Of a stretch of 64,000 nucleotides of DNA, positions 17,926 through 41,264 are shown one piece after another. Position numbers and translations under genes: made by a program. This DNA is from Sulfurimicrobium lacus (GTDB lineage Bacteria; Pseudomonadota; Gammaproteobacteria; Burkholderiales; Sulfuricellaceae), in contig NZ_AP022853.1 in NCBI RefSeq assembly GCF_011764585.1, positions 2,568,501 through 2,632,500 of the forward strand, written 5' to 3'. Position 1 is the stretch's first letter. Each line of letters opens with the position of its first letter. A model generated the notes under the pieces. The model worked only from the letters and a program-made list of their open reading frames with translations. It made no database searches and was not told where the DNA came from.

Positions 17926-17970
17926 GTTCATACCCTCCGTTATATGCACCACGTTTTCGCTCTCGCGACG

Positions 17971-18626: not shown

Positions 18627-21600
18627 TTAGCGTAATTCAACAGCCCCGATATCGTATCCACCACGTTGCGGCCGCGGGGTACCGAAGAAGTCGTGGTTCG
18701 GTGCACCGGTTGCGGTTGCAGTATTGATCGCCGGCGAACCAGACCCGATCGAGTAGTTCGCAAGCGGTGCCTGCGGCGTGCCAGCGGCTGCAATGGCGGC
18801 ATTGATCAAGGACAGCGGACCGTAACCCAGGTTGATCCAGTTGTTGCCTTCGTCGACCGTCGCAGCCACTGTCAACTGGTTCAGCGCAAATACCACGGGC
18901 AGCCCGGTGAATTCCGAGCGTCCGGCCGGCGCGTTGTAGCCCTTGCATCTTGGTTGGTCTACTGCAGCAACTCCGGTGCAATTTTCCGGCGGAATGCGTG
19001 CGCCATTGCAGTACTGGCTCACCACCAACGGGTCGCCGCCGAGGTTGTTGTTACCCGTGTAGGCACCGCTCGACAGGATCGAGTAACGCGGCACAAGCCT
19101 GGCATCTGTGCTGCCGTTGCCAAGGAGCTGGTTGCCTCCTGCGGGACTTGTGTCACCGCGCACACCGATGTCCCAGTAGTTAACAGGGCCACCACTGCCA
19201 GGCGCGCCGACATCGGTACCCTGCGTAGCGCATGCACCAGTCGCTGTTTGATTCAAGGCGGGCACCAGGGTGACCACAGACTGCTGCGCCTGTTGACCAG
19301 TGCCCAGCGCACCCACCTCGACGTGGAACGCGCGGTTGTGCCACAACACGTTGTTGTCCAGCAGCGGGAGGGATACCTGACGGCACGCGCCATTGGCCAG
19401 CGTGCTATAGCCAAAGCCCGTTGGGCAGACCACGTTCGCCGGCAAGGCGGCTGTCATGTTCGGCGTGTTCTGCATCGTCACCACACCGGCAGCCTGATTG
19501 GTCGAGGTCTTGACAGGATTGGTGCAGCTCGGATCCTGCGGCTGTGTCGGGTCGCTGACCGGGTTGCAACCCGGTGGTGGCACGGACGCCAGGGGCGCGC
19601 CAAGGGTGTTGAACAGCACCCCCGCCGAAGCCGTGGTGTCGTTGTTGATCACCGTGTTGTTGATGAATTTGACCCTGAACGCGTCCTGCATCGACACGCC
19701 GCCGCCGTCCCATCCAGCCACGTTGTTGGCGATGATGTTGTTGCTCACGGTGACATCGTTCCATCCCGGACTACGTTGGGCTTGAGGCCCGACCGCAACC
19801 CGGTTCGGACGGGTGGGGAAGGCAACCACATCCTGGCCATTGACCATTTGCAGACGCAGGCCGCCACCAGTACCGCTCTCCGCACTGTTGCCGAGGATCA
19901 GGTTGGCGTCGATCAACAGGTTGCGGCCGGTGCCTTCGGGCAGCCCCGGTGCGCAATCCAGGTCTTGCAGCGCGCCGCACTCAAGGCCAGCGTTGGGGCC
20001 ACTCGCGATAATCCGATCCGGCGACGCCCCCATGACTCCGATGCCGCCGCCATTGGTCGGTATGGTCGGGCTCTGGGTCTGGTTGAAGAGGATCCAGTTG
20101 CGCGCCATGGTGCCGTCGTTGCTGAAGCCGGAGTGCGAAACACCGCCGGAGTCGCCCGTGCTCAGGTTACCGCACACCCAGTTGTTATTGAACATGTAGC
20201 CGTCGGCACCGGGGCTGAACGTGACGCCACCAGCCGCCGAAGGCGTGCCCGAATACAGGGCGTCACCAGTCGATGCGTTGGCGGTGACCGCGTTGTGGTG
20301 CACGTGCACGTTGCGGTTGAAGCCATAGCCGAGCTGGGTACCGATCGGCGTGTTACCCGGAACCGGGAACGGCAGGGCCACGAAATCGGGATCGTTCGCA
20401 GCGAGCACGATGAACGGGTCGGGGAACTCGCCGGTACCGATGGTGATGCCGCCCGTCAGCGTGCCGTGGTTGCCATGAACCCGGGTGTTGGACACTTCCA
20501 GGTTATGGGTCCAGGCATGCGCGAAGACCGCACCGCCACCCTGCGAGCTGTTGATCACGCTGATACCATCGATACGCGACGGGTTGCACAGGAAATTGGT
20601 GCTTTGGTACTCGCGCCAGAACGCTGTGCCGCTGGCCGGGTTGGCGCAGTCCGCATTGGCATTCAGGTACCTGTAGTCCGCCGGGAATCCGCCTGCTGTC
20701 GCAGCGCCGAATTGATCGGCTACGGAGGTGCCTGGCGACATCCACACGCCTTTACCGAGGACCGTGACGCCCGCACCTTCATAGGCACCCATCAGCGTGG
20801 GTTCCTGCAGCATCTGCGCAAGGTTGCCGTTGCCGAGGACGTCCCAGCCGAGGATGGCCTCGAAGTCGATGCGGTCGACGTGCTGACGCATCGAGTTGGG
20901 ACAGGTGTAGCCCAAGCCGGTCGGATCGTAGGGGTTGCTCGTGGTGATGGGTTGGCCGTTCAGCGACAGGCCGAACAGGCAATTCAGTTGCCGACGCCAG
21001 GCGTCCATCTTGCCCGCGGGATGTGCGTCCGCGTTGATGATGACGGACTCCGCGCCAATGCCTTGCAGCCGCACCGGTTTCCACATCAGCAGGTTCTCCT
21101 TGTACGTACCGGGACCGACGATGATCAGGTCGCCAGGAACGGCCCTGTCGATCGCTGTCTGCAGCGGGTTGGGCTGGATGTGGCCGAACGTCGTAATGCT
21201 TGTGCTGGTCGGCGTCACGTAGGTCGGCGCCTTGCCGCCAATCGTCACGGTGACCGTGTCGATGGATTGCTTGCCATTGGCAGCAGTGATGACCAGCTGG
21301 GCGCATCTCATGGTAGCCGGTGCATTACGTTGCTGGATCGCGCAGGTCGAGGCCGCTGGAGGAATGGTTGGCACCGTTCCCGTGATCGTTCCGTCGCTCC
21401 AGCTTACTCCCGTCAGCGGACGGGAAACGCCGTCGCTACCAACAAGAGCCACGGTCCCGGCTGTGCTGCCGAAGCCATAGTGCCGCGTGATGAACTTCTG
21501 GTTGAACGGCACGGCCGTGGCCATCGGACCGGAATAGGCGTTGTTGAGCACTGACTTGTCGCCCAGGGCAGTGATGGTCAGGGACTGTCCGGCTGTGCTA

Positions 21601-24600
21601 ACCCAGGGGCCAGCGCCGCCACCGCTTGCTGTACCGGTCACCGACTTGATCGCAGGCGTCGTATCCATGTATTCGCAATCCGGCAGGTTGTATCCAGCCG
21701 CAGAGGCCATGGTCGGGATCACCGGCGTGTCCAGATATGACGTCTGTCCTGGCATGAACGTCCACTCATAGCAGAAGTTGCTGTACGCCGGGTTGTACAT
21801 CGGGTCGGTGATCGTCTGGCCGGGATGGGCCGAGTCGGGTATCGGGCCCGGATCGTTCATGCAGGCGATCATCACCTGCGGAACATAACCGCTCGGACTA
21901 GGCGGATTGACCGTATAGCTCGAGAAGGTCATGCCATTGAAGTTGCCCCACTGGTCTGCATAGACGCGCGATATTTCCTTGCCGGAAAAATCACGGAACG
22001 CAACCGGCACATTGGGCACCGCGAATTTCTCGCCGAACTGCGGCGAGAACGGGTCGAACTCGGACGCGAAGTCGTTGGTGATCGTCCCGGCGAAACCAGC
22101 AGCAACGTGCGTCGAGTTGAAGAGGTAGAACTTCGCCAGCGCCGTCATTTGGTCGCCGAGCGCAATCTCCTTGCGGTCGCACAAAGGCCGTGTCGCACCC
22201 GCGAACGGTGCCGCTTGGCCCGCACCCGGGAACAGGCTGTTGTAGTCGGGCACGATGCGCTTATCACCAACGCACGGCCAGAACACTTCGACCGAGCCGG
22301 TGTCGCCTTCACGCCGGGCTACCGCACCGTTGTTGGTGGTCGACTGGATCGGGTTGGTCGGGTTGTAGAAGGCGTTCATCGCCGCCTGGTCAGGCATGAT
22401 GAAGATGTTGCCGAAGCCGGCGAACTGCTGCGTGACCGGCGCGATAAACGCGTCGCCAAGCAGAATGTTCTTGTCTTCCTCTTTCACCAGTTCATAACCC
22501 TCAGGCACGATGACTTCGACGACGTACTTGCCTTGCGGCAGCATCGGCGCGTTGTAGTCAAAGTCGGTTGCCGCAGCAAACGTATTCGCAACGCAGCCGG
22601 TGCAGTTGGTCGCGGTCGGCTTGCCGGTGACCGGATTCCTGGCCGTCACGCTCGGGAATTTGTACATCCCGTTGTAAGGCGCCGGCTGGACCTGGTTCAG
22701 CATCGACCAGCCGTCATAGCACTTGAAACGGCCCTCATAGGGCAGCGCCGTAGTCGGATTCAGCGCCTGGGTGCCGCCTTGCATGGTGAAATAGAATGGG
22801 CTGTTGGTTTCCTGGCCCGGGCAGTTCATGTTGGGCTTGCCATCGCTGCGGAAGCCTTGGGCAAAATCATCCCAGCTGCTCGTCATCGTGGTATCCACGA
22901 GTTTGAGGGTCTTGGTGCCGTCCGGCCCGGTGTCTTCCCGGTACAGATTGACCTTTACTTTAGCGATGCCAGGTTCCCAACTCAGTTGCAACAGCAATGC
23001 CGGATCGTCAAACGGACGCGTAGAGGTATAGATCACATGGCCCTTGATACCGCCGTTTTCGCCTGGGGCAAAGGGCTTCATCGCAAATTCGATAAAGCTG
23101 TTCTGGCCCAGCAGCCCTTGCCAACCCTGGGTGGATGCCCATGGCGGATCGACGCGGCCGCTTGAACCGGGATTGCCGGCTGCCGGGTCGAAGCCGGGAT
23201 CAGCAAGAGGACAATCGGCCGAAGCGCAATAACGTGCCCCCGGAACTCGCAGGTCCGCAGGCAAGTGGGCGGTAGGCGATTCGATGGTGTTCGCCATGTG
23301 GTTCGCGATAGTCGAGCTGCCGCCACCAGTGGTGCCGTCGACCGGGCCGCCGGTGTCATAAACGACGTGCACGCCTGACAGTTTGTAGCGCGCGCTATCG
23401 GTATCGACCACCAGCCAGTTCAGGAACGGGAAGACTTCGTTGAACCCCGCATAGCCAGACAAATCGGTATTGTTGAAACCGGCATAGCTGCCGTCGCGGT
23501 AGCGGATGTTGTACGGAGCCAGCGGCAGACCGGGCTCGGATTCCTGCGACACGCCGTCGCCGTTCTGGTCGAGGAATACGCGGCCATACAGGTTGGTGCG
23601 CCATTGCGTCACGGGAATCTCAAGAGGCGTGCCCGCGCTGCTTCCAGGCCCCGTGCTCACTGCCTTGATCGGCGTGGACAGGCCGTCGACGAGCAGGTCG
23701 TTCCATTGGTCGAAGACCGTGACTCTCAGGTTGCCGAGGGGAATGCCGGTGAACGAGAAGGTCCCATCCGGGTTGCATTTGGTGAACGCGAAGTCGTCGC
23801 TGTCCGGCGCGCCCAGGCTCACGTAGCATTGTGCGAAGCTGTAGGCGTCATAGCTGCCGCTGCTGTAGACGCGTTGATCCGGCGTGCGGCTCATGCGCGT
23901 GCTGGTCACCATCCCGTAGAAGTTGCCGGTGCAGTTTCCTGCTGCCGCACAGATGACATTCTTGCGGTCATTGATGATCTTCGGGTTGGCGAAGCCGACG
24001 GCGACGTGGTAGCCGCCAGGCCCGAACTCCTGGAAGTAGGCAGGCTCGCCGGCCTTGATGAACGCCTCGATGGCCTTGGTGCCGTCGAGCGTGTTGGTCT
24101 GCAGCCATTCTTCGCCGCGCGCAATCCGGTCTGCCCCCGGCGTCGCCACGACTTCATACAGGCCGGGGTACATATTGGCGATGATGGCGTGCCCGGCAAG
24201 CGGCGACAGGGTCGTGCCGTCCGACTCGTATTTCGGACAAGTCACAATCATCCCCACCAGCCCGTCGGTCTTCTTCGAAATCGGGCAGGCATCGAGACCG
24301 GTGCTTGGGTCAATTGTCCCAGCCAGTGAGTTGGACACCGGCATGCCGAACATGTCGTAGGTGATCTGTCCGGTCGAGTCGCCCATGGTGCCTGCCTGGT
24401 CGAGCAGCACGAGGCTGAAATCACCCAGGCCGGGCTCGTTGGGCGCCAACACGTCGATCCCCCCGCCGGTATCGACCTCGCCGTTGAGCGGCGCATCGTC
24501 CTCGAATACGACCACTGCGATCTTCGCGGATTCGAGCGGCGTTTTCTGCACGAACACATTGACGGCAGTCTGTCCCGCAGCGATCTGCGCGCCGCCCATG

Positions 24601-26846
24601 GTGTGACCGTCGCTCCCGTCAACGACCGGGTTGGCGCCGTCGCCCGGCAGGACTGAGATGTAATAGCGCTTCAAGGGGTCGAGATGGGCGAGGCTTGGCA
24701 AGACTTCTGTCTTCGCCGTTCCCAGCCGGCACGCACCGTTGCCGACGTCGCACACAGCGGGTTGCCCGAGCAACGTCTGTCCCGATTCGCACGAAATCGC
24801 GCCAACACAGCCCTGCGCCACCACCGGCATGTTGCTGGTGTGGAAGTTGATGGCGAGATTACGAACTGCAGTGGTGCTGCTAGTAGTTTCGATCTTGGGA
24901 TCGATCCAGATGCTGCGGTCTTCCTGGATGATCCAGCGGTAGTCGGTGAGCACCGCTCCGGTCTTGCCATCCTGGACCGTGACGGCAAGGTTGCTGGCAG
25001 TGCCGAAACTCACTGTTGCCGTGGCCGCTCCGCTGGCCGTGTTTTGCGAGTTCACCGCGGTATAGGTGAATGTGCATGACGCGCCTGCCGCCGTGGCGGT
25101 AAACGAACCGTCCGGGCTGAGTTGCACGCTGCTGCAGTCACCGGCGCCAGCCAGCACCGCCTTCAGGGGGTAACCGGAAGGGTCCGTATCGTTAGCCAGC
25201 ACACCTGGCGGACTGATCTGCAGGCGCGAGGCGATGTTGCTGGTGTAGTTGTCAGCGACCGCCGTTGGTGCGGCACCGAGGCATGCGCCGGTACAAGCGG
25301 CCAAGGTGACAGTTGCGGTCGTACCTGATGAACAGGTCGTCCCGCTGACTGTCCCGTTGGCGCAATAGCTGAAGGAGTCTGAAGTCACCCCTGTGCCGGG
25401 CGTATAGGTGAAAGTGCCGTCAGCATTGAGGCTGAGTATGCTGCCAGCGCCTGTCGGTGTGGTCAGCAGTTGCACGCCGTACACGCCGGTATCGTTGGCG
25501 ATCAGCCCCTTGGCCGGTTCGGCGACAGCAAGGACGTTACCGGCGACGAGCGAGTAAGTATCGGCACGAGCGACGGCTGCCACTGATGCTGGCGGAGTAC
25601 CTCCAGCTACACTGATGTAAGTCTGCATACCGCCGTCGCGCTGGTTGTTGGTCGACAAGCCGAGCGCACGGTCGAACACCGCGTAGGTGGCCGCGCCATA
25701 GGTTCCGGCTGCGCTCTGCTTCGGCTGAATCGTCACGTCGTAAGTCTTGCCTGCGGCGAGGAACACCGAACTCTGTACCTTGGGAACGCCCGGCAGCTTG
25801 TTGCCGTCCTCGGCCAGCAGCGTCATGTTCGCGCCGACGACCGAAGGAATGTGCATGCGCAGGCCCGCATTGACAAAGCGCAGCATGACGCGCCCCTGAG
25901 TAGCGGACGCTGGTACCGAGAGCGCCGATGCAGCCGAATTGCTGCGGTCGAACGACGTACCGTTGATCAGGTAATAGCGCGGGTCATAGTTGACCGCGGG
26001 CGGGTAGCAGGTGTGCACTGTCGGGTCGCCGCATTTACCGGTTTGGCCGCTCCACACCAGCGCGTCGCTGAAGCCGGCGGTTCGCACAGCCGTATCGACC
26101 GCGGTGTTTTGCACCGGATCGATTTCGCTCAATAGCAGCGCGACATCCTTATCGAAGGTCTGTCCATACGCCTGGGGTACTGCCACTGTCACCAAGGGAT
26201 CGGTGACCACCAGCACGCCGTACATGCCCATCGCCCCCTGGATCGACGGCTGCGTGCCTGACTCGATCAGGTAGGTGCCGGGGCGAAGATTGTTCCAGGT
26301 CAGCGCAGTCGTCGCTCCTGCCGCGACTTCAGTCGCGAACGAGCGCACACGGTCTGCCTGGGCCGGGGGTGTAAATACCGGGTCACCCGGATTGGTTGTC
26401 CCCAATGTTCCAGGCCACGTTGTTCCCTGCGGTGCATGCACCGGGCTGGGCATACGCGTCGGTGCGCTTCCCAGGCCACCACCGAGCTGGCCGACGATAA
26501 CCAGCGAGGTCGGCACCGTATTGGTCCCGGCACCCGCGGTAAAGCTCAGGTTGTTCGTCAGATTGATCGTCAGGCTGCTAGTCGAGGGAACTGTGATCAC
26601 CACCGGTGACCAATTCCCCGCCGCGTTCGGATTCGAGGCTGCACAGGTAGCGCTCCCGGCGCTTGCAGCAACCGCACCGCAGCTGTAGCCCCACATCGGC
26701 ACCGCTTGCCCGTCAGGCAGCGTGGCTTGACTGGGCGCCGCCGTCAGATTGACGGTGTCAGCAAGCGCAACACCGCTCGCTAGCAGGAGAATGGAGGCGG
26801 CGAGTCCAGCCTTGATCAGGCTCATCTTGGTCATATTGGCTCTCAT
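18627..26846 (-). CDS. Giant secreted protein: cupredoxin-like head, cadherin/SdrD-type repeats, beta-helix tail, 2739 aa
   Basis: A signal peptide (residues 1-29) leads into a cupredoxin-like region (about 30-430) aligned with the MCO at 26865: GTYLIESGTQ and AMGMYG match its GTHAYYSGTQ and EMGLYG, but the copper His residues are absent. Two cadherin/VCBS-like repeats follow (about 430-640; LIANDTG and VLANDTDPSG). Then come SdrD/Cna-B-like modules (about 640-1800), including GRVFLDQNGDGV, and an IPT/TIG-like stretch near 1900. The last 700 residues are a right-handed beta-helix (NNWVCGN, NNIIANN) closing with GYDIGAVELR. AGGAGA precedes the ATG. It resembles very large MofA-type secreted oxidases by size and context only. 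A scaffold or adhesin that carries the oxidases is the best guess. Confidence 0.8.
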   Translation of the reverse strand: MRANMTKMSLIKAGLAASILLLASGVALADTVNLTAAPSQATLPDGQAVPMWGYSCGAVAASAGSATCAASNPNAAGNWSPVVITVPSTSSLTINLTNNLSFTAGAGTNTVPTSLVIVGQLGGGLGSAPTRMPSPVHAPQGTTWPGTLGTTNPGDPVFTPPAQADRVRSFATEVAAGATTALTWNNLRPGTYLIESGTQPSIQGAMGMYGVLVVTDPLVTVAVPQAYGQTFDKDVALLLSEIDPVQNTAVDTAVRTAGFSDALVWSGQTGKCGDPTVHTCYPPAVNYDPRYYLINGTSFDRSNSAASALSVPASATQGRVMLRFVNAGLRMHIPSVVGANMTLLAEDGNKLPGVPKVQSSVFLAAGKTYDVTIQPKQSAAGTYGAATYAVFDRALGLSTNNQRDGGMQTYISVAGGTPPASVAAVARADTYSLVAGNVLAVAEPAKGLIANDTGVYGVQLLTTPTGAGSILSLNADGTFTYTPGTGVTSDSFSYCANGTVSGTTCSSGTTATVTLAACTGACLGAAPTAVADNYTSNIASRLQISPPGVLANDTDPSGYPLKAVLAGAGDCSSVQLSPDGSFTATAAGASCTFTYTAVNSQNTASGAATATVSFGTASNLAVTVQDGKTGAVLTDYRWIIQEDRSIWIDPKIETTSSTTAVRNLAINFHTSNMPVVAQGCVGAISCESGQTLLGQPAVCDVGNGACRLGTAKTEVLPSLAHLDPLKRYYISVLPGDGANPVVDGSDGHTMGGAQIAAGQTAVNVFVQKTPLESAKIAVVVFEDDAPLNGEVDTGGGIDVLAPNEPGLGDFSLVLLDQAGTMGDSTGQITYDMFGMPVSNSLAGTIDPSTGLDACPISKKTDGLVGMIVTCPKYESDGTTLSPLAGHAIIANMYPGLYEVVATPGADRIARGEEWLQTNTLDGTKAIEAFIKAGEPAYFQEFGPGGYHVAVGFANPKIINDRKNVICAAAGNCTGNFYGMVTSTRMSRTPDQRVYSSGSYDAYSFAQCYVSLGAPDSDDFAFTKCNPDGTFSFTGIPLGNLRVTVFDQWNDLLVDGLSTPIKAVSTGPGSSAGTPLEIPVTQWRTNLYGRVFLDQNGDGVSQESEPGLPLAPYNIRYRDGSYAGFNNTDLSGYAGFNEVFPFLNWLVVDTDSARYKLSGVHVVYDTGGPVDGTTGGGSSTIANHMANTIESPTAHLPADLRVPGARYCASADCPLADPGFDPAAGNPGSSGRVDPPWASTQGWQGLLGQNSFIEFAMKPFAPGENGGIKGHVIYTSTRPFDDPALLLQLSWEPGIAKVKVNLYREDTGPDGTKTLKLVDTTMTSSWDDFAQGFRSDGKPNMNCPGQETNSPFYFTMQGGTQALNPTTALPYEGRFKCYDGWSMLNQVQPAPYNGMYKFPSVTARNPVTGKPTATNCTGCVANTFAAATDFDYNAPMLPQGKYVVEVIVPEGYELVKEEDKNILLGDAFIAPVTQQFAGFGNIFIMPDQAAMNAFYNPTNPIQSTTNNGAVARREGDTGSVEVFWPCVGDKRIVPDYNSLFPGAGQAAPFAGATRPLCDRKEIALGDQMTALAKFYLFNSTHVAAGFAGTITNDFASEFDPFSPQFGEKFAVPNVPVAFRDFSGKEISRVYADQWGNFNGMTFSSYTVNPPSPSGYVPQVMIACMNDPGPIPDSAHPGQTITDPMYNPAYSNFCYEWTFMPGQTSYLDTPVIPTMASAAGYNLPDCEYMDTTPAIKSVTGTASGGGAGPWVSTAGQSLTITALGDKSVLNNAYSGPMATAVPFNQKFITRHYGFGSTAGTVALVGSDGVSRPLTGVSWSDGTITGTVPTIPPAASTCAIQQRNAPATMRCAQLVITAANGKQSIDTVTVTIGGKAPTYVTPTSTSITTFGHIQPNPLQTAIDRAVPGDLIIVGPGTYKENLLMWKPVRLQGIGAESVIINADAHPAGKMDAWRRQLNCLFGLSLNGQPITTSNPYDPTGLGYTCPNSMRQHVDRIDFEAILGWDVLGNGNLAQMLQEPTLMGAYEGAGVTVLGKGVWMSPGTSVADQFGAATAGGFPADYRYLNANADCANPASGTAFWREYQSTNFLCNPSRIDGISVINSSQGGGAVFAHAWTHNLEVSNTRVHGNHGTLTGGITIGTGEFPDPFIVLAANDPDFVALPFPVPGNTPIGTQLGYGFNRNVHVHHNAVTANASTGDALYSGTPSAAGGVTFSPGADGYMFNNNWVCGNLSTGDSGGVSHSGFSNDGTMARNWILFNQTQSPTIPTNGGGIGVMGASPDRIIASGPNAGLECGALQDLDCAPGLPEGTGRNLLIDANLILGNSAESGTGGGLRLQMVNGQDVVAFPTRPNRVAVGPQAQRSPGWNDVTVSNNIIANNVAGWDGGGVSMQDAFRVKFINNTVINNDTTASAGVLFNTLGAPLASVPPPGCNPVSDPTQPQDPSCTNPVKTSTNQAAGVVTMQNTPNMTAALPANVVCPTGFGYSTLANGACRQVSLPLLDNNVLWHNRAFHVEVGALGTGQQAQQSVVTLVPALNQTATGACATQGTDVGAPGSGGPVNYWDIGVRGDTSPAGGNQLLGNGSTDARLVPRYSILSSGAYTGNNNLGGDPLVVSQYCNGARIPPENCTGVAAVDQPRCKGYNAPAGRSEFTGLPVVFALNQLTVAATVDEGNNWINLGYGPLSLINAAIAAAGTPQAPLANYSIGSGSPAINTATATGAPNHDFFGTPRPQRGGYDIGAVELR

Positions 26847-26864
26847 AATATTTCTCCTGGTTTG

Positions 26865-28478
26865 CTAGTTCGCTTCGATGATGCTGAAGACCCACGGGTC
26901 CACCAGCATCATCATCATCATTCCGCCGGGGAAGGCATTGTTGGTCGTGATCTCACGCTCGTTATGCGAGTGCCACATATAGGCGAAGCCGGCTTCGTCG
27001 CTCGGGTTCCCGACCGTCCCTGATGGTGGAATCGGCGTGCTGCCGACAGCACGCGCCGTGGCATCCGGCCCGAGATAGGGACTGCCGCCATACCATGGGC
27101 CGTTGGCCAGGATGTTGGGGTCGGGCAGCGAGACGGGACCGCCGCTACCGACCTGGCCGAAGGGCTTCGCTTCCAACGGCTTCTTGTGGTCTGCGCACCA
27201 CTCGAAGTAGTTGGGCGCGGTGAGCGGCGCACCGCTGCCGGTGGTGTAGTAGCCGTTTGCGTCCGGTACGCAGGTATCGGCCGTGATGCCATCGGCATGC
27301 GCGTAGACGTCCCAGTTCAGGCCCTTGCCCGTCCACTGGAAAATGCCGTCCAAAGCCATGCCGGGCGTGGTGGTGGTGGTGAACAGCAGCGGGCCGGCGA
27401 GCTTGTTGGAAGATGGAGTCAGCAGCAGGTTGCCGTCGCGCGCCAGCACGCGGACGTGATTGCCGTGCTCGTGGAACGGGTGTTGCCAGCGGCCGGTGCC
27501 GATGACACGTAGCAGCACGAGTTCGCCGGGGTGCATGTGCGGGTTGCCGTTATACGGCTGGTGCGGATATTGCACCGCGTAGTTCGGGTCCATCAGGTCA
27601 GGCATGGACCGGCCGTTGACGATGTAGTACGCCGGCACGTACGGCTCGGTGGCGACGACCATGCAACCGGTCGGCTGCGTGCATGGGAGTGCCGCCTGGG
27701 CCTGGGCCTGCTGGTGAATCACGGGGTCAATTTCCGAAAACTGGAACAAATACTCGCGGTCATAGCAGGCTGCGGGGTGGTTGTACGCCGATGCGGCGAG
27801 ACGGAAGTCAGGGTCCCCATTCGGCAACGTCGCCGTCGCCCCGGCGGAATGAGCATGGCAGGTGGCGGGCAGATTGGCTGGCGTCGCATAGCCCGCCGGT
27901 ACACTGTTACCGTTGGTCGGCAAGACGATGAGCGCGCCGTAGAGCCCCATCTCGACTTGCAGGTCGCCCTGCGTGCCGCTGTAGTAGGCATGCGTGCCGG
28001 GTGTGCTGGCCACGAAGGTGTAAGTCACCGTCCCGAGGTTCGCTGCCTCTTGCGCGAGCAGGCCGGCGGTTCCGCCGGTCGCGGTCACGTTAAATCCAGG
28101 AAAAAGGATCGAGGTATTGCCTGCGGCTGCCGGCAGATTGTTGTGCAGGGTGACGATCACGATGTCGCCCTGATTCACGATCAGCGTGGGTCCGGGTAGC
28201 TGCATCGCCCCGGCCGGGCAACTGGCATTGGTAATCGTTGCCGGCGCAAACCCGTTCGGTGCAGTGTTGCAGCCATAGCCCCAGGAATAGATGCTCGATC
28301 CGTCGGGCTGGCTGATGTAGCCAGGTACGGCCGTCAGGTCGAAATTCGGCCCGGTGATGCCGGGTGCGGCTGCATGGGCGGTACCGACGAGCAGAGAAGC
28401 AAGGGCCGTCGCGGCAAGCAGGGCGAAATTTGCGATCCAGGTCTTGTTGATCCAGGTCATGTGTGTAATGTGACGCAT
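26865..28478 (-). CDS. Multicopper-oxidase-like protein with C-terminal copper ligands only, 537 aa
   Basis: A signal peptide (to about residue 36) is followed by an N-terminal cupredoxin domain that has lost the usual ligands: where HxHG is expected it reads LHNNLPAAAG, and the second site reads GTHAYYSGTQ. The C-terminal domain keeps HPFHEHGNH (residues 333-341) and WHSHNERE (His503 and His505), the latter with Ser where the type 1 Cys usually lies, then a run of five Met. So it can supply half of a trinuclear cluster but has no type 1 site of its own. AGGAGA lies six bases before the ATG. It sits 36 bases after the other MCO and 18 bases before the giant gene. Confidence 0.85.
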   Translation of the reverse strand: MRHITHMTWINKTWIANFALLAATALASLLVGTAHAAAPGITGPNFDLTAVPGYISQPDGSSIYSWGYGCNTAPNGFAPATITNASCPAGAMQLPGPTLIVNQGDIVIVTLHNNLPAAAGNTSILFPGFNVTATGGTAGLLAQEAANLGTVTYTFVASTPGTHAYYSGTQGDLQVEMGLYGALIVLPTNGNSVPAGYATPANLPATCHAHSAGATATLPNGDPDFRLAASAYNHPAACYDREYLFQFSEIDPVIHQQAQAQAALPCTQPTGCMVVATEPYVPAYYIVNGRSMPDLMDPNYAVQYPHQPYNGNPHMHPGELVLLRVIGTGRWQHPFHEHGNHVRVLARDGNLLLTPSSNKLAGPLLFTTTTTPGMALDGIFQWTGKGLNWDVYAHADGITADTCVPDANGYYTTGSGAPLTAPNYFEWCADHKKPLEAKPFGQVGSGGPVSLPDPNILANGPWYGGSPYLGPDATARAVGSTPIPPSGTVGNPSDEAGFAYMWHSHNEREITTNNAFPGGMMMMMLVDPWVFSIIEAN

Positions 28479-28514
28479 GGCTATTCTCCTATTTGCTGCT
28501 GCCGCAGGCCTTGG

Positions 28515-29996
28515 TCAGAGTATGTGGATCTCGGTCATCATTCCGCCAAAGTTCTCCGCGTCGTTCGACAGGTGGTCGAGCTGCGGCGTGTAGAGGTAGA
28601 AGACCGATCCGGCTGGATATTTAGTGGTGTCCGATGCATCCAGGATCACGTCGAGCGACTCGCCGCCGCCAAGGGTGATCGAGTTCGTGTCGTAGGCCAT
28701 GTTGGTGCCGTCCTGGTCGCGCAACAGCCTGGCGTTAAGGGCAATCACGTGCATCGGGATGCCGAGCGAGGCCAGCGTATGGAACTCGCTCACGTTAAGG
28801 TCCGAGATACGCAGCAGCGCCCTGCCACCCGCCGGAATGTTGATGAGGGCCGGCAGCGGTTGCGAATAACGCGACACACCGTCCGCCGACTGCGTGCTCA
28901 ACGGTTGCGGATTGATCGTGTCCGGGTAGCTCCTCCCGTTCAGCAGGAAGTACTTGTCCTTCAGGTCGATGAAGGTTTCCGGGTTGAAGGTCATGCCGAC
29001 GAAGTGGAAGTTCGGGTCGAAGCCGTGCATCTGGAGCGGGAACTCGACGTCGTAGGCGGTCGATCCGTCGCCGTCGTTGTAGGCGTACATCTTGTTGGCG
29101 GCGCGCGTCACACTATTGACTGGCGGCAGCGGCGTTGAACACAGAATGTCGTCGCCGCACTTGGTGCGCAGGTTGGTCTGCTGCGCAACCAGTCCGTTAT
29201 AAAGAGAGCTCCCCACCGCTACCCGATTCTGCCGCGGCCGCACGTAGATCTGGCCCACCATGCCCATCTGCAGGTGCTCGGGTGGGGTGATGTGGCAGTG
29301 CCAGAAATAGGTTCCCGCGTCGGGCGCCAGGTAGTAGTAAGTGAAGCTGCCGCCGATGTTGATGGCGACGGAGGCATCGGGCACGCCGTCGAAATACGCC
29401 GAAGCGTTGGGGTAGCCGTGAAAGTGAACGGTGTGCTGCTCGAACAGATCGGGACGCATGATCTGGCCGACGTTGGTCAGGGTAAGGAAGAACTCGTCAT
29501 CCTCATCGATCGCCATCAGAGGCGCCGGCGAGTTGCCGTTCAGCACCCCGACATCCATGATCACGCGCGGGTCGACGTGCCCGTTTATCTGGTTGGGGGG
29601 CACGGACATCGGATCAGGGGTGAGGCCGACCGCGCCATTAAAGGTCGTGGACGTGTTCGGTTCACCGACGCCTGGATCGGTTGGGGCGAGCGTGTTGAAC
29701 ACCGCTGCCGTCTGCGTGCCCGGCTTGCCATTGACCATATCGGCAAGGCCGGACAAGGGTCCGAAGGCGAACAGGTAGGTTTGCGTGCCGTCGGCCATGG
29801 TCGCGAAGCCATCGCCACCGGAGATTTGCTGGCACTTGATCAGTCCGGGGTGGGTCGGATCGACCGCGCTGCCATTCGGGTGCATCGTGGTCGTCTGCGG
29901 GCACTGCACGCGGAAGCTAGTTGCCTCGGCGGTCGTGGCAAACAAACACAGCAGCAACAGGGGCAGCAACCGCTCCAAGTTGGGAAAGTTCAACAT
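28515..29996 (-). CDS. Multicopper-oxidase-like protein with N-terminal copper ligands only, 493 aa
   Basis: The ATG at 29996 is chosen for AGGAGG eight bases upstream and the signal peptide (LERLLPLLLLCLFATTAEA). The first cupredoxin domain has HFHG (191-194) and HCHITPPEHLQMGM (His233, Cys234, His235, His241, Met244), which gives a type 1 copper site plus four His for a trinuclear cluster. The second domain lacks the partner motifs: HPxHxHG is replaced by EFHTLASLGIPMHV and the C-terminal HCH by DHLSNDAENF. This arrangement recalls two-domain oxidases and nitrite reductases with type 1 copper in domain 1. It is the first gene of the directon. Confidence 0.85.
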   Translation of the reverse strand: MLNFPNLERLLPLLLLCLFATTAEATSFRVQCPQTTTMHPNGSAVDPTHPGLIKCQQISGGDGFATMADGTQTYLFAFGPLSGLADMVNGKPGTQTAAVFNTLAPTDPGVGEPNTSTTFNGAVGLTPDPMSVPPNQINGHVDPRVIMDVGVLNGNSPAPLMAIDEDDEFFLTLTNVGQIMRPDLFEQHTVHFHGYPNASAYFDGVPDASVAINIGGSFTYYYLAPDAGTYFWHCHITPPEHLQMGMVGQIYVRPRQNRVAVGSSLYNGLVAQQTNLRTKCGDDILCSTPLPPVNSVTRAANKMYAYNDGDGSTAYDVEFPLQMHGFDPNFHFVGMTFNPETFIDLKDKYFLLNGRSYPDTINPQPLSTQSADGVSRYSQPLPALINIPAGGRALLRISDLNVSEFHTLASLGIPMHVIALNARLLRDQDGTNMAYDTNSITLGGGESLDVILDASDTTKYPAGSVFYLYTPQLDHLSNDAENFGGMMTEIHIL

Positions 29997-32011: not shown

Positions 32012-32548
32012 TCACGGCTTCGTCACCGGTTTTATGCCAAAACGCACCGTTTTGCTCATGAACACCCAGTCGGAATACTTCATCTTGTCTTCGAAGCTGC
32101 TATCGGCAAGTCTGAAGTTGCGCTTCTTGATCGGTTCATCTTCAGAAAGGCTGTAAACCCCGAGAATTTCTCCGCTCGGCCCCTTGACCAGTCCCCACTC
32201 GGAACTGCCGGTGATCGGGTCGCGATAAATCTTTCTCAAATAACGTTGCGTGGCCGGCGTGCGCGGGTCTTTCAGCAAGTCTTCGAGGCTCACGGGATAT
32301 CGTGCGGAACCGCCTGACGCATGTCTCGAATATTGATTGAGCGCGCGACGGAACTGGTCGCCGACGAACAGCAGTTCGCGCTCCTTTTCACGCTGCACCG
32401 CCATGTGCCATACCTCCCCTGCCGAAGCGAGAACAACGCCGATGATCGCAATAAAGATCAACAGGGCGATATAGGTAAACCCCGCTACGGCAGACGGCGC
32501 ACGGTGGATGTCTTTCATGCCTGCGTATTTTTTGTAGCTCATGCGCAT
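32012..32548 (-). CDS. Minor pseudopilin lacking Glu5, 178 aa
   Basis: A basic leader ends in AG, then FTYIALLIFIAIIGVVLASA, the N-terminal helix of a type IV pilin-like protein. Position 5 of the mature protein is Ala instead of the usual Glu, a trait known from GspK-type tip pseudopilins, but the 178-residue length and the body (YPVSLEDLLKDPRTP, YRDPITGSSEWGLV) are GspG-like. It is the last of three consecutive pseudopilin genes, six bases after the previous stop. It probably caps or starts the pseudopilus. Starts at Met3 or Met11 are possible. Confidence 0.8.
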   Translation of the reverse strand: MRMSYKKYAGMKDIHRAPSAVAGFTYIALLIFIAIIGVVLASAGEVWHMAVQREKERELLFVGDQFRRALNQYSRHASGGSARYPVSLEDLLKDPRTPATQRYLRKIYRDPITGSSEWGLVKGPSGEILGVYSLSEDEPIKKRNFRLADSSFEDKMKYSDWVFMSKTVRFGIKPVTKP

Positions 32549-32554
32549 TTTGCG

Positions 32555-32932
32555 TCACCAGTCCTTGTATTCCGTACCGTCCCTTGCCTTGCCTGGCGCG
32601 CCGCTCTTCAAGTCGTACACGCCCCCTTTTTCAGGCACGTCGGGAGGCACGACGATCCACGTGGTGCTGCTGTCGGTGATGGGATCGACCGGGAGGCTGC
32701 GCAAGTACTTCTTGTTGACCAGCATGTCGAGGGAATCGGGATACTTGCCGTTGTCCCCGTAATACTTGTCCAGAGCCTGCCGTGTCAGGGACAGGTTATC
32801 GCGCAAGACGGTTTCCTTCGATTTTTCGATGCTCTGAAAGTAACGTGGCACGGCCAGGCTCAACAGCAGCGCGATAATCGCCAACACGACCAGCAGTTCG
32901 ACCAGGGTAAAGGCTTTGATTCGCCGGAACAT
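32555..32932 (-). CDS. GspG-like pseudopilin, 125 aa
   Basis: The short leader MFRRIKA is followed by FTLVELLVVLAIIALLLSLAVP, with Glu5 in place. The residue before the cleavage site is Ala rather than the usual Gly. The body has YYGDNGKYPDSLDMLV, LRSLPVDPIT and ends EYKDW, like major pseudopilins of type II-like systems. It lies between two other pseudopilin genes, 15 bases after the upstream stop. It should be cleaved by a prepilin peptidase, which is not encoded in the window. Confidence 0.85.
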   Translation of the reverse strand: MFRRIKAFTLVELLVVLAIIALLLSLAVPRYFQSIEKSKETVLRDNLSLTRQALDKYYGDNGKYPDSLDMLVNKKYLRSLPVDPITDSSTTWIVVPPDVPEKGGVYDLKSGAPGKARDGTEYKDW

Positions 32933-32947
32933 GGTTGCGGGCGCTCC

Positions 32948-33430
32948 TCACCAGTCTTTGTAGCTGATGCCGTTCAGTCCGACACCGCTCGACAACGAGT
33001 ACACGTCGTACACATCGTCGCCCGCTTCCGGGGAATCCGCGCTGCTGGCGTAGCTTCTCTTGCCCCAGGTTTCATCATTGGTATTGGCCGGATCGTCGGA
33101 CATCGGGTCGCGCGGAATGCGCCGCAGAAAATAAATCATTCTTTTTCCGTCCGGGTCGGTTTGATCGGGAACGCCCTCGACCAGCACATTCAGCGTTGGC
33201 GGGTAGCCGGTTTGCTGCATCGAGGTTTTCACGCGCCCTTCGTCCACGGCCTCCTTGTAGGCGTCAATCGCACTGCGAATCTGGCGCAGGTCCAGGCGAA
33301 GCTCCTGCTCCTTGTCGCGCTGCACGACCAGTTCCATCATCGGCAACGCCACGCTTGCCAACAGGCCTACGATCGCCACCGTGACCACCAGCTCGATCAA
33401 CGTGAAGCCTGCGGGGGCGCGCCTGATCAT
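32948..33430 (-). CDS. GspG-like pseudopilin, 160 aa
   Basis: The leader MIRRAPAG and mature start FTLIELVVTVAIVGLLASVALP are canonical, with Gly at -1 and Glu at +5. The body shows LRQIRSAIDAYKEAVDEG, YPPTLNVLVEGV, RRIPRDPMSDD and ends GISYKDW, a pattern shared with the next gene downstream, so these are probably duplicates. The start overlaps the secretin stop by four bases, so the two are translationally coupled. Confidence 0.87.
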   Translation of the reverse strand: MIRRAPAGFTLIELVVTVAIVGLLASVALPMMELVVQRDKEQELRLDLRQIRSAIDAYKEAVDEGRVKTSMQQTGYPPTLNVLVEGVPDQTDPDGKRMIYFLRRIPRDPMSDDPANTNDETWGKRSYASSADSPEAGDDVYDVYSLSSGVGLNGISYKDW

Positions 33431-35772
33431 TGTGTCACCGTGATGGCATGGGGCTCGGGAGCAGCAAGCGCCAACGATCCGCCACCGCTTGCTGCGGAAG
33501 TGATATTTCTGACCGATATCTGCGATGACGGGGCCGCAGCAGTCACTTCGAATACCAGCGTGACAACGCTACCGCCCCCACTTGCTTCACCCGTCCCCGA
33601 TCCGGACAGCCCCACCACGATGTTGCCGCTCTTCTGGTTGATCGTTTTCATGAGGTTCGATTGGGCATTATTCTGTTTCATCGCATCTCCTTCGATCACA
33701 TCGACCGCTTTCAATACGGCGGGGTCGTAGCTCACCTGGAAGCCCAGGCTTTTTGCCCCAAGCGGCGCTGAATTGTTGAGCGTCAGGCTGATCCTGTCGC
33801 CCACCTTCGCCTGGTTGGGGCCGTCCCATGAAAGAGCAACCGCTTGCGGCGCCGCGTCAGCGGGCGTTGCGGTGACCGGCGCTTTGGCTGCCGGTTGCCG
33901 GGGTGCCGGCACAACAGGCTGTGCAACGCTGGAAAAGCCGACGCTCCCGCTCGATTTCATGGTTAAGGCGCTACTGCGCAAAGTGGATTCCGTGCCGGAC
34001 CAATATTCCACTTCGCGCGCGTCCGGAAGGATATTTCTACCGACGATACGCGGGGTGATGGAAAGAACGATCTCCGACTTACTGGTATTGTCGCCATGGC
34101 TGGAGAACAAACGCCCCAGGATCGGCAGTTGGCCAAGACCAGGCACTTTATTGGCGTTTCTGCGATCCTCGTCGCTGATCAAGCCGGCAAGAATCTGGGT
34201 TTCACCGTCCTTGAGGCGCAACACGGTCGAGGCGTTGCGCGTGCCGATCTGATAGGCCTGCGTACCGGAGATGGGATTGTTGACCTGCTTGACGATCGAA
34301 CTCACATCTAAATTAATCTTGATAGAAACATCGTTGTCGAGATGTATCTCGGGCTCGACCTCGAGCTTCATGCCCACGTCCAGATACTGGACGCTGCCCG
34401 TTACCACGGGCGTCCCGGTCGAAACCGGAGTCACGGCGTTGGTGATCACCGGCACGCGGTCGCCGATCATGATCTTGGCCTTTTCATGGTTGCGCACGCG
34501 GATGCGCGGGCTGGCAAGCAGATTGGTGTCCGTGTCCTGCAGCATCAAGTTGAGCGCGAGACTCAACGGCGTGGCAGTGTAGCTCTTCAAGGGGGTGTGC
34601 AGGAGTTGTCCGAGGCTGCCAGGAACGTTTGTTGTGCTCTGCACGCCAGCGCTCGTTGTGAGCGTCGTACCCGTTGGCGAGGTCAGAGTCAGCGTATCTG
34701 GCCACTTGATTCCCAACTCGCTCAGGCGCGAGGTGCTCACCTCGAGCACTTCAACTTCCAGCATGACTTCCGGATCGGCAATATCCTGGTCGGCAACCAT
34801 TTTTTCCGCTAGCCGGATGGCCTCCGGCGTATCCCGCATCACGATGGAATTGGTTTTCTCGTTGATGAAGATATCCTTGGTCTTGAGCAGGGTTTTGATC
34901 ATCGTCAGAACCTGCTTGGGATCAGCATTGGTGAGGTGAAAGCTCCTGATCTTGAGGTCCTGGTAATCCTTGAGTTTGGCTGGCGTATTGGGGTAGATGA
35001 ACACCGTGTTGTCGCTGATGATCTTTTTCTCCAGCTGGCTTTGCAGCAGGATTAAATCGATGGCATCTTCCACCGACACATCCTTGACGAAAATCGAGGT
35101 TTTGAGGTCCGCCCTCACATCCTTGTCGAGCAGGATATTGATCCCGCTGGTGCGCGACAGGGCCTCGAACACCATCTTGAGGTTGGCGTCACGAAATTGC
35201 ATGGTCACCGGCTTCCTGAACTTTCCCTGCAGCGTCGGTTCGGCCAACAGCCCTTTCGCTGCCTGCTCGTCGATCTGCTGTTGCAGCAGGAGCGCCGGCC
35301 CATTCCTCGGGTTCTCCAGCAATACCGTCTTGAGCGCCGCCCGTGCCCCTTCCGCATCGCCCTTCTTGAACAGGCCGGTTGCCTCGGCGACGATCTTGGC
35401 ATGGCGCCGGTCCATGGCCAGCGAGGCCATGCCGTCCTTTGCGCCGTTGCTCTGCGGATCGATGCGCAGAGCATGTTCGTAGATTGCCTGCGCGGCATCG
35501 TAATGCTCCTGGGCTCGTTCGCTGTTCGCGTTCGCCAGCATGCGGTTGACGAGCTGCTCGCGGTAACGCGCCAGCGTAGTGCGATAGGACAGGTTCCCGG
35601 GTTCGGCCTTGGTGGCCTCCTCCAGTTTTGCCAGGCCTTCTTCGCTACGCCCGGCCTGCAGCAGCTCCATTCCCTCATCGTGCAAACGCTGCCCGGCACA
35701 ACCCGCAAGCATCGTCGCAGCAAGCAGGAACAGTATATTGTTGCCTGTGAAGTGCAAATTTAGCCTGTGCAT
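33427..35772 (-). CDS. Secretin (GspD/PilQ-like) lipoprotein with TPR and C-terminal cohesin-like domain, 781 aa
   Basis: The N-terminus is a lipoprotein signal (lipobox LAGC, residues 22-25). TPR-like helices follow (about 30-170), then a short N0/N1-type region starting FRDANLKMVFEALSRTSGINIL, the secretin core (about 330-590) with LLASPRIRVRNHEKAKIMIGD and GQLPILGRLFSS, a Pro/Ala-rich linker and a cohesin-like domain (about 655-780: GAKSLGFQVSYDPAVLKAVDV). The secretin should form the outer-membrane exit channel. Cohesin-like domains on secretins are known in some type II-like systems and may bind substrates or partners. The gene follows the PilP-like gene by 22 bases. Confidence 0.9.
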   Translation of the reverse strand: MHRLNLHFTGNNILFLLAATMLAGCAGQRLHDEGMELLQAGRSEEGLAKLEEATKAEPGNLSYRTTLARYREQLVNRMLANANSERAQEHYDAAQAIYEHALRIDPQSNGAKDGMASLAMDRRHAKIVAEATGLFKKGDAEGARAALKTVLLENPRNGPALLLQQQIDEQAAKGLLAEPTLQGKFRKPVTMQFRDANLKMVFEALSRTSGINILLDKDVRADLKTSIFVKDVSVEDAIDLILLQSQLEKKIISDNTVFIYPNTPAKLKDYQDLKIRSFHLTNADPKQVLTMIKTLLKTKDIFINEKTNSIVMRDTPEAIRLAEKMVADQDIADPEVMLEVEVLEVSTSRLSELGIKWPDTLTLTSPTGTTLTTSAGVQSTTNVPGSLGQLLHTPLKSYTATPLSLALNLMLQDTDTNLLASPRIRVRNHEKAKIMIGDRVPVITNAVTPVSTGTPVVTGSVQYLDVGMKLEVEPEIHLDNDVSIKINLDVSSIVKQVNNPISGTQAYQIGTRNASTVLRLKDGETQILAGLISDEDRRNANKVPGLGQLPILGRLFSSHGDNTSKSEIVLSITPRIVGRNILPDAREVEYWSGTESTLRSSALTMKSSGSVGFSSVAQPVVPAPRQPAAKAPVTATPADAAPQAVALSWDGPNQAKVGDRISLTLNNSAPLGAKSLGFQVSYDPAVLKAVDVIEGDAMKQNNAQSNLMKTINQKSGNIVVGLSGSGTGEASGGGSVVTLVFEVTAAAPSSQISVRNITSAASGGGSLALAAPEPHAITVTQ

Positions 35773-35794
35773 GTCAGATTCTCCCTGGCGGCAT

Positions 35795-36343
35795 TCAAGA
35801 CGAATTGCCGGTGCTTATTGACTGCTTGATGTTGAGCGGCAGGTAAGTCATTTCCACCATGCCATGCTCCACGCGATCCACGCGGTAGGTGCTTTCGATC
35901 ACGTCACCCACTGCGACGGTATATAGCCGGTCGCCCTTGAGCAGCATGATGACCTGCCCCGAATTCTCCTGGTAAAGCCCGAGATAGGTAAACGGCATGG
36001 GCGGCGCGGTCGGTTTCGGCGGCGGCTGGGGCGGGGGCGGTGGGGGCGGCGGCGGGGGTACGTACCAGGAAGTTGCGCCGAATACGTTGCCTATATTTTC
36101 ATTCCCGTTAGCTTGAAGCGCAGCATGGTCCAGACGTTCGAGCTCGACACGTGACTCGTCCGGGGCACGCTGCACCGTTTTCTTCGCCCCGGAGGGGACA
36201 ACTCTGGTTGATTGTTCCGGTTTCTGGTGCGGCTTCTTCGCCGTCCCCCAGCCATCGCCGCAAGCGGCGATGGTGGCAATCGCCGCGAGCAAGCAGCCGA
36301 GAAAGGCAGGCTTGCCCCAATGCAGCCACCGGCGCGCCTTCAT
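35795..36343 (-). CDS. PilP/GspC-like periplasmic linker protein with polyproline tract, 182 aa
   Basis: The ATG at 36343 overlaps the upstream stop by four bases. One hydrophobic segment near the N-terminus (FLGCLLAAIATIAACG) may be a membrane anchor or lipoprotein signal. A run of ten prolines, then KPTAPPMPF, forms a stiff linker to a small C-terminal beta domain (FTYLGLYQENSGQVIMLLKGDRLYTVAVGDVI) like the HR domain of PilP/GspC. Such proteins connect the inner-membrane platform to the secretin encoded next. The proline run would make translation dependent on EF-P (established for polyproline). Confidence 0.75.
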   Translation of the reverse strand: MKARRWLHWGKPAFLGCLLAAIATIAACGDGWGTAKKPHQKPEQSTRVVPSGAKKTVQRAPDESRVELERLDHAALQANGNENIGNVFGATSWYVPPPPPPPPPPQPPPKPTAPPMPFTYLGLYQENSGQVIMLLKGDRLYTVAVGDVIESTYRVDRVEHGMVEMTYLPLNIKQSISTGNSS

Positions 36344-36963
36344 GATGCCTGCTCCAGGTAGAGCACCATTTTGATCTTGGCTTCGACGTTGGGATCGGCA
36401 ACTTTCTGACGCTCGAACTGCACATTCTCCAGCGCGATGACCGGAAGTGTCCCCGGCACATCGGTCAGAAATCTCCGGATCTGCGGATACTCGCCCTTCA
36501 CCGGCAAGGTCATCTGATAGCGCACCAGCTTCCCGACTTTCTCTCGCGTTGCCTTGTATTCCCCATCGTTCAGGGTGAGCCCGCGGGATGCCGCCAGGGC
36601 GACCAGTTTTTCCAGCCACTGGGGCGAACATCCCTCGTGGGGAAATTTCCCGTAGAACTCGGTGAGTTGCTCTGCCGGGCTGAGTCTTGCGCTACTGGAC
36701 GACTTGCCGGCCAGCGCCAGCTGTTCATGCAACCGGTCTGCGCTGAAGCGCGCAGTGTCCAGTCGCGCCTGCATGGGGCGAATCGCGGAAAAATAGAGCG
36801 CCGGGCACATAACCAGTATGCCGATTGCCAGTATTCCTGGCGCACCGATGCGACGCAGCCAGTGCCGCGCCGTCCAGCGCACGCGGCTCCACAAGGGCGG
36901 CGCTATAGCGGCCTCGGAACCGGAGACGATGGGCCGCCGAAGCATGTCGAGAAGCCACCTCAT
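36340..36963 (-). CDS. PilO/GspM-like inner-membrane protein, 207 aa
   Basis: The ATG at 36963 overlaps the stop of the PilN-like gene by four bases. One transmembrane helix (IGAPGILAIGILVMCPALYFSAI, about residues 38-60) is followed by a coiled-coil stretch and a ferredoxin-like periplasmic domain with LTLNDGEYKA, VRYQMTLPVKGEYPQIRRFL and LPVIALENVQFER. Membrane topology, length and gene order after PilM- and PilN-like genes identify it as the PilO/GspM equivalent of the alignment subcomplex. Confidence 0.8.
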   Translation of the reverse strand: MRWLLDMLRRPIVSGSEAAIAPPLWSRVRWTARHWLRRIGAPGILAIGILVMCPALYFSAIRPMQARLDTARFSADRLHEQLALAGKSSSSARLSPAEQLTEFYGKFPHEGCSPQWLEKLVALAASRGLTLNDGEYKATREKVGKLVRYQMTLPVKGEYPQIRRFLTDVPGTLPVIALENVQFERQKVADPNVEAKIKMVLYLEQAS

Positions 36964-37505
36964 GACGGGTCCCGCCAAATGGCCAACAACACGAACCGTA
37001 CCGGTTTTTCAGGGTCCTGCAACTGAATATGGTGGCTTTGCAGATAGACAGTGCCGAACACATCGCGGTTTTCGAGCTGCTTGATGTACTCCAGCATGGC
37101 CGCAATATTCTTTGCCTCGCCGCTGATTTTAACCAGCCCTTTTTCCGTGTCGGGTTCCAGTCCCAGCAAGGTCACGTCTTTGCTGCTGTTGTCCTCCACC
37201 GTCTGGAACAGGCCGTTCCACGGCACACTGAGCTGGCGCAGCACCTGGTTGGCACGCTTCACCTCCAGCGCAAGGTCACTTGCCATGCGCTCGCCTTCAA
37301 GCCCGGCCGGGGACCGCTGCCGCCCGGCGCGTTCGATATGCTCTGCGCGAGACTCCCAAAGCGCTGCCTGATCGCTCAGATTGCGAAAATAGACGCCCGT
37401 CGCCGCCAGGGCTGTCACTGCGACAGCGAGCAGCAGCGCACCCTCCCAGGAGAGGAGTCTGGCCCCGCGCTGATAATCGAGATTTAGTTGAGCCATCGTG
37501 GTCAC
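36960..37505 (-). CDS. PilN-like inner-membrane protein, 181 aa
   Basis: A short cytosolic N-terminus (MAQLNLDYQRGARLLSWEG, with the family's Asn-Leu motif for binding PilM) is followed by one transmembrane helix (ALLLAVAVTALAATGVYF), a coiled coil and a periplasmic ferredoxin-like domain (VTLLGLEPDTEKGLVKISGEAKNI). It starts with a GTG that overlaps the upstream stop (GTGA); an ATG three codons later is possible. Together with the flanking genes it forms the cytoplasm-to-periplasm alignment platform. Confidence 0.8.
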   Translation of the reverse strand: MTTMAQLNLDYQRGARLLSWEGALLLAVAVTALAATGVYFRNLSDQAALWESRAEHIERAGRQRSPAGLEGERMASDLALEVKRANQVLRQLSVPWNGLFQTVEDNSSKDVTLLGLEPDTEKGLVKISGEAKNIAAMLEYIKQLENRDVFGTVYLQSHHIQLQDPEKPVRFVLLAIWRDPS

Positions 37506-41212: not shown

Positions 41213-41264
41213 CGCTCCTCCCACCCTTTTCCACGGTCAATTTCATGTACTCGTCAGCAGCGCA

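Follow-up and report, generated by a model that had tools for sequence, protein, structure and literature searches.

Trinuclear copper ligands divided between two adjacent multicopper oxidase-like proteins of Sulfurimicrobium lacus

Introduction

Two-domain multicopper oxidases are homotrimers in which each trinuclear copper centre is built from domain 1 of one chain and domain 2 of its neighbour. This study concerns three genes, termed F1, F2 and F3, in a stretch of 64,000 nucleotides from Sulfurimicrobium lacus (contig NZ_AP022853.1, positions 2,568,501 to 2,632,500), here called the window and numbered from its first letter. F1 and F2 encode adjacent two-cupredoxin proteins, each carrying one half of the ligands of such a centre. 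Best matches in sequence and fold are type C two-domain oxidases such as the blue copper oxidase of Nitrosomonas europaea (3g5w) and a metagenome laccase (2zwn). These likewise consist of two cupredoxin domains, each with a trinuclear half and the first with the type 1 copper. In the type C enzymes, however, one chain bears both halves and the homotrimer holds several centres, whereas here the halves lie on two proteins, each with a dead domain.

Heterodimeric fungal laccases resemble F1/F2 in consisting of two different subunits. Unlike in F1/F2, their whole copper set resides in the large subunit alone. The six-domain oxidases, i.e. ceruloplasmin, hephaestin and the bacterial MnxG type, are built of three two-domain units and retain one trinuclear centre, the rest having been lost, as proposed here, and those such as ceruloplasmin keep at most one of three possible centres (passages of PMC3600357). 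Their six domains form one chain; here they would belong to three gene products. Searches of open-licence papers gave no description of a multicopper oxidase in which two different proteins share the trinuclear centre.

Passages of PMC5566968 report that Sideroxydans ES-1 has three extracellular oxidase genes in tandem, accompanied by a MofC-like cytochrome and a copper chaperone. This cluster of S. lithotrophicus ES-1, Slit_1816-1818, likewise comprises three tandem extracellular cupredoxin proteins, one of them very large and motif-less, a MofC-like cytochrome and an SCO1/SenC gene, and the S. lacus locus has the same gene content. Judged by gene content and order rather than by sequence, Slit_1816-1818 is very likely the same cluster as F1-F3. 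In passages of PMC12016527, two of its proteins are described as canonical or typical multicopper oxidases and the third as lacking the motifs, and production is reported mainly on magnetite. The passages of both papers that deal with these proteins do not mention that neither canonical oxidase has the full ligand set (PMC5566968, PMC12016527); "trinuclear" and "histidine" have no occurrences in PMC12016527. OmpB of Geobacter and MofA of Leptothrix, encoded close to a MofC-like cytochrome and SCO genes, are also large extracellular metal-oxide-linked oxidases (passages of PMC5566968); they are single proteins, unlike F1-F3, and are likened here by description, not by sequence.

Results and discussion

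Gene layout and copper ligands

An open reading frame check located both genes on the minus strand, at the positions given by the original prediction, which had been made from the window's letters.

28515..29996, minus strand: F1, two cupredoxin domains; domain 1 bears the type 1 site together with one half of the trinuclear-centre ligands, domain 2 is ligand-free
26865..28478, minus strand: F2, two-cupredoxin protein with a ligand-free domain 1 and the other trinuclear-centre half in domain 2; no type 1 Cys

F1 (493 amino acids) and F2 (537 amino acids) are separated by 36 bases. F1, F2 and F3 all lie in one frame (26846-29996, minus strand) with short spacers and one stop each. They are three separate genes with stops between them, and not one chain of six cupredoxin domains. 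Loci of relatives were collected by a scan with the F2 alignment, one genome per species (80 kept of 253 confirmed relatives). Frame-sharing of F1 and F2 occurs in 9/80 of these loci and is not a general feature.

Ligand positions were followed in two kinds of alignment, a family set of 120 F1-type and 120 F2-type proteins, window proteins included, and locus alignments of 90 F1 and 96 F2 rows.

29418..29435, minus strand: F1 HTVHFHG, with H188 (type 1) and H191 and H193 (trinuclear half); 120/120 and 90/90 rows; aligned to HTIHWHG of 3g5w
29259..29300, minus strand: F1 HCHITPPEHLQMGM, with H233 and H235 (trinuclear half) and C234, H241 and M246 (type 1); 120/120 and 90/90 rows; aligned to HCHVNVNEHVTMRGM of 3g5w
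28749..28775, minus strand: dead site of F1 domain 2, L408/L411/I413 opposite F2 H333/H336/H338 (profile alignments)
27948..27983, minus strand: dead site of F2 domain 1, Y166-S167-G168...M177 opposite the HCH...M motif of F1 (profile alignments)
27456..27482, minus strand: F2 HPFHEHGNH, with H333, H336, H338 and H341; 120/120 each
26964..26972, minus strand: F2 HSH, with H503, S504 and H505, Ser standing where the type 1 Cys would be; His in 120/120 rows
27186..27197, minus strand: F2 C428-x2-H431, possible extra metal site; both residues in 96/96 locus rows

The two F1 motifs sit in the first cupredoxin domain, whereas HPFHEHGNH and WHSH of F2 sit in the last. Together they provide eight trinuclear-centre histidines, H191, H193, H233 and H235 from F1 and H336, H338, H503 and H505 from F2. 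The single type 1 site across the pair consists of F1 H188, C234, H241 and M246 and is absent from F2 and F3. In F2, Y166-S167-G168 stands opposite H233-C234-H235 of F1 (profile alignments). H333, which by position we take to be the usual type 1 histidine, is retained in F2 although the type 1 Cys is replaced by Ser. The ligands were assigned from profile alignments with solved two-domain oxidases, and which copper each histidine binds is as established for the family. C428-x2-H431 is possibly an additional metal site of F2; both residues are kept in 96/96 rows, whereas the neighbouring C403 is lost in 6.

The original prediction had seen in F1 the HFHG and an HCH-type motif without HPxHxHG or a C-terminal HCH, and in F2 the lack of a first-domain HxHG and HxH beside HPFHEHGNH and WHSH in the last domain; the profile alignments bear out both descriptions. 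Its further statement that the pair supplies eight histidines and one type 1 site, and neither protein alone, also holds: a pattern search found both ligand halves in one protein in 0/426 aligned rows, some genomes being counted twice. On these grounds it is likely that the O2-reducing trinuclear centre forms between the F1 and F2 chains; the ligands, their invariance and the pairing are read from sequence, and the assembly is what we infer from them.

Conservation of the present and the missing halves

Every named ligand of F1 and F2 is invariant within its own family set (120/120). Most rows of these sets are more than 70% identical to the window proteins, which makes that invariance weak by itself. 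The stronger test is a distant clade included in the locus alignments, whose family scores are only 150-460 bits against about 900-1000 elsewhere. In the locus alignments, the F1 ligands are kept in 90/90 rows, F2 H333, H336 and H338 in 96/96, and H503, S504 and H505 in 95/95, one row ending early; H341 is not strictly conserved (91/96). Rows are not genomes: eight genomes occur twice among the F2 rows and three among the F1 rows. Left out were the window copies (L001, L082, L092), two weak loci (L091, L101), and rows shorter than 401 amino acids or below 130 bits (F1 of L030, L050 and L086-L090).

Where a half is missing, its alignment columns are occupied mainly by Leu, Ile, Pro, Phe, Tyr, Ser or Gly; nearly all rows share L408, L411, I413, Y469 and P471 of F1 and Y166, S167 and G168 of F2. 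Position 166 of F2 is a lone residual His in 2/120 and 10/96 rows; the full motif never occurs. Four of the six cupredoxin domains of the three proteins are ligand-free, as would be expected if a duplicated oxidase were decaying and its copies losing their function. Such decay is very improbable, given that the loss is identical in distant clades, the remaining ligands do not vary, the frames are intact and proteins of what is apparently the same cluster are made by Sideroxydans ES-1 on magnetite.

Pairing of F1 and F2 across genomes

F1 lies directly upstream of F2 on the same strand in 80/80 loci. Strong matches (>100 bits or E <= 1e-20) to F1 and to F2 fall in the identical 9/370 genomes of a class sample, where all 12 pairs are adjacent, and in the identical 2/299 genomes of a phylum sample; the window genome is included in both samples. 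Genomes with several copies carry them as pairs, three in G086 and two in G211. The best scores per genome leave a gap between 65 and about 149 bits. Weak matches (E <= 0.001; 117 and 60 of the 370 genomes) lie below about 65 bits; their lengths and scores mark them as other oxidases or nitrite reductases, and they were left out of the count. Homologues of one protein without the other, which the original prediction had named as evidence against itself, were found in none of the 370 and 299 genomes searched. The F1/F2 family is common in records of soil and freshwater Proteobacteria and Acidobacteria.

The window genome is one contig given as 100% complete. It contains no PF07732 or PF07731 protein besides F1 and F2, and PF00394 matches only F3; the same searches were positive in 6 to 9 of 14 control genomes. 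F1 and F2 are thus the only visible partners for each other, if their half-sites are completed at all.

Fold and class membership

The F1 motifs HTVHFHG and HCH...EH..MGM align with HTIHWHG and HCHVNVNEHVTMRGM of 3g5w in a profile comparison (E 6.6e-16). Residues 306-413 of F2 match residues 173-271, the second domain of 3g5w, and place HPFHEHGNH over HAIHTHGH. The fold type of F1 and F2 occurs in trimers and is that of enzymes with the trinuclear centre between chains (passages of PMC13151041). The split oxidase put forward by the original prediction, with an active site between two separately encoded chains, is supported by every indirect test, among them gene pairing, the lack of another partner in the genome and a fold that places the centre between chains.

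Each protein has two cupredoxin domains, and F1 carries its type 1 ligands in the N-terminal domain, as two-domain oxidases do. The eight trinuclear histidines of that class are not found in one chain, four being on F1 and four on F2 (0/426 rows with the full set). By this reading of their sequences F1 and F2 are not ordinary two-domain oxidases, because the full ligand set in one chain defines the class; as a system they probably work like one. In copper nitrite reductases (NirK) the only such copper is type 2, and HxxDxH and HCxP motifs stand in place of HxHG and HCH. F1 keeps both HTVHFHG and HCH in every row (120/120 and 90/90) and scores far below the cut-off of the NCBIfam model Cu_nitrite_red (33.9 vs 296.3). 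The NCBIfam models for three-domain laccases, ascorbate oxidase and CueO are likewise far below cut-off, and the full set these enzymes carry occurs in none of the 426 rows.

The third protein and a possible heterotrimer

F3 follows F2 downstream.

18627..26846, minus strand: F3, 2739 amino acids; ligand-less two-cupredoxin start, then SdrD_B, cadherin/Ig and beta-helix parts (domain matches)
25557..26846, minus strand: N-terminal part of F3 (about residues 1-430), an F2 paralogue with neither trinuclear half; hhalign to the F2 family 99.8%, E 5.9e-28
18630..24107, minus strand: C-terminal surface part of F3 (about residues 914-2739); in a divergent clade its homologue stands as a gene of its own, immediately upstream of F1

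The start of F3 aligns to F2 over both domains, and its only conserved histidines are H137 and H332 (76/76). This alignment consists of the 75 of 77 F3 starts that were long enough, plus the window protein. An F3-type start lies downstream of F2 in 77/80 loci and in 11/11 regions from nine other genomes. It was not seen in L030, L049 and L076, of which L049 and L076 end just past F2 and L030 reaches about 1.5 kb further. F3 of locus L116 bears an HSH at residue 339 and no other motif.

The remainder of F3 is of surface type and includes a choice-of-anchor domain. In the distant clade F3 is shorter (603-1112 amino acids where complete), and 6/7 frames upstream of F1 match F3 residues 633-2739 in part, with 27-32% identity. 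These free homologues of the F3 C-terminal part (L106, L108, L109, L111, L112 and L113) point to fusion or fission of a surface module between clades. A module joined to F3 in one clade and free beside F1 in the other is the kind of link expected of parts of one complex, as far as gene arrangement can suggest it; it is not a link between F1 and F2.

We propose, at a probability of roughly 0.5, that F1, F2 and the start of F3 form a heterotrimer, three sister two-domain chains in one ring with a single centre common to F1 and F2 and two dead interfaces, a surface-anchored, gene-split counterpart of ceruloplasmin that would oxidise metals extracellularly. F1 and F2 could instead share the centre as a simple pair, a dimer or even multimer, with F3 a separate surface protein that is merely in the same operon; F1 and F2 alone suffice for all eight histidines and the type 1 site, and F3 aligns to F2 and not to F1. 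We regard this arrangement as rather unlikely, given that F3 opens with a two-domain paralogue in nearly all loci and in all further regions, that the fold type is found in trimers, and that the other four domains are each ligand-free, as expected if they face each other. The heterotrimer is likelier than the plain pair because a third ligand-less two-cupredoxin protein accompanies F1 and F2.

Gene neighbourhood

Further genes around the trio are as follows.

17971..18528, minus strand: protein of 185 amino acids, no Pfam match; near the trio in 44/80 loci
17107..17952, minus strand: LolA-like lipoprotein-sorting protein, weak match just under cut-off; near the trio in 33/80 loci
14532..16223, minus strand: cytochrome c with a periplasmic-binding-protein domain, MofC-like by architecture; Cytochrom_C above cut-off, Peripla_BP_6 below
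13722..14360, minus strand: SCO1/SenC copper chaperone (PF02630, E 8.8e-22)
32012..41224, minus strand: type II secretion/pilus-like set upstream (pseudopilins, secretin, PilN-like, T2SSE, T2SSF); secretin homologues within 13/80 loci

The MofC architecture is taken from passages of PMC5566968. SCO genes occur in 4/80 and MofC-like genes in 2/80 loci, counts that are no test, as the loci reach just 10 kb past F2, mostly F3. The SCO1/SenC protein, the cytochrome c and the type II-like set suggest copper loading, an electron link and export, respectively.

Within the T2SSE/T2SSF/pseudopilin set, the secretin (33427-35772, minus strand) carries N-terminal tetratricopeptide repeats and, at its C-terminus, a cohesin domain (PF00963, E 5.8e-13). 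The LolA-like protein (281 amino acids) and the adjacent one (295 amino acids), encoded together at 16223-17952 on the minus strand, have similar starts (EKNVAARGG and DRNVAARGG), look like a tandem duplicate and occur close to the trio in 33/80 and 32/80 loci, respectively. A protein encoded at 12246-12908 on the plus strand has a PEP-CTERM sorting motif (PF07589, E 2e-7).

Proposed mechanism and its weighing

In the proposed heterotrimer of three diverged two-domain chains, the live centre would sit at the contact of F1 domain 1 with F2 domain 2, and the other two contacts would be dead. One ring order would give one complete centre and two dead contacts, because only these two domains have kept ligands. 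Electrons would enter via the type 1 copper of F1 and travel over the HCH bridge to the joint F1/F2 centre, where O2 would be reduced to water. With its large surface part, F3 would carry the complex and so probably anchor it at the cell surface. Export of the trio would fall to the adjacent type II-like system, and the SCO protein would assist its copper loading. Fe(II) or Mn(II) is the probable substrate, judging from the neighbour genes and the published protein data on what is apparently the same cluster.

Several observations weigh against this proposal or do not back it. In the profile search, domain 2 of F2 matches 3g5w at a weak 14.1 bits, and the stretch that places F2 HSH over HDH of 2zwn has no significance of its own. 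A joint F1-F2 model, built as one read-through chain because both genes share one frame and based on a 59-row alignment, reached a mean predicted local distance difference test score (pLDDT) of 48.9 and a predicted template-modelling score (pTM) of 0.43, values that speak neither for nor against a contact; in a model of F1 alone, computed with 140 of 141 sequences of its alignment, the copper loops (179-186, 194-222, 235-244) stay below a pLDDT of 50. The start of F3 does not align to the F1 profile, and its place as third chain rests on kinship with F2. Export of the trio by the type II-like system, likely as it is, and the substrate assignment are both drawn from neighbours. Slit_1818, which by gene order would be F1, is the least abundant of the three Sideroxydans proteins, with a maximum percentile of 29.5 vs 74.8 and 79.3 (passages of PMC12016527), so that equal amounts of the three are not favoured.

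Fused versions of the two genes, for which the original prediction had advised a search, did not turn up either: no natural F1-F2 fusion was among the 120 listed of 3488 matches to the read-through query, and of 115 newly listed proteins none exceeded 100 bits to both F1 and F2, in a search over best-word candidates of 574-1825 amino acids from which distant fusions may escape. The F1 frame of G274 is open far upstream and looks fusion-like; it was rejected, as a Met with a signal-like start stands just before F1 and the upstream frame has no Pfam match.

A different division of labour, compatible with the low-confidence joint model, would have F1 carry electrons by its type 1 copper and F2 bind copper or play a structural part, without a trinuclear centre and with histidines that serve single copper ions. 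The same fold also includes type 1 copper proteins without such a centre, namely the nitrite reductases. All four trinuclear histidines of F1 and all four of F2 are nonetheless invariant, beyond what single coppers need, and the two genes were never found apart in the genomes searched, which makes this division improbable.

Significance

Ceruloplasmin has long been proposed to descend from a two-domain oxidase homotrimer by duplication, fusion and site loss. If the proposed assembly is right, the trio would be a living stage of that route in which two sites were lost without fusion. It would also be the first oxidase with an O2-reducing centre assembled from two different proteins, and would mean that two different gene products can jointly make up this centre in a multicopper oxidase. 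Annotation would change as well, since F1 and F2 are each named multicopper oxidase and neither could be one alone. With neither protein complete by itself, a single-gene expression test of Fe(II) or Mn(II) oxidation would consequently fail trivially. The F1/F2 family may matter for extracellular metal oxidation.

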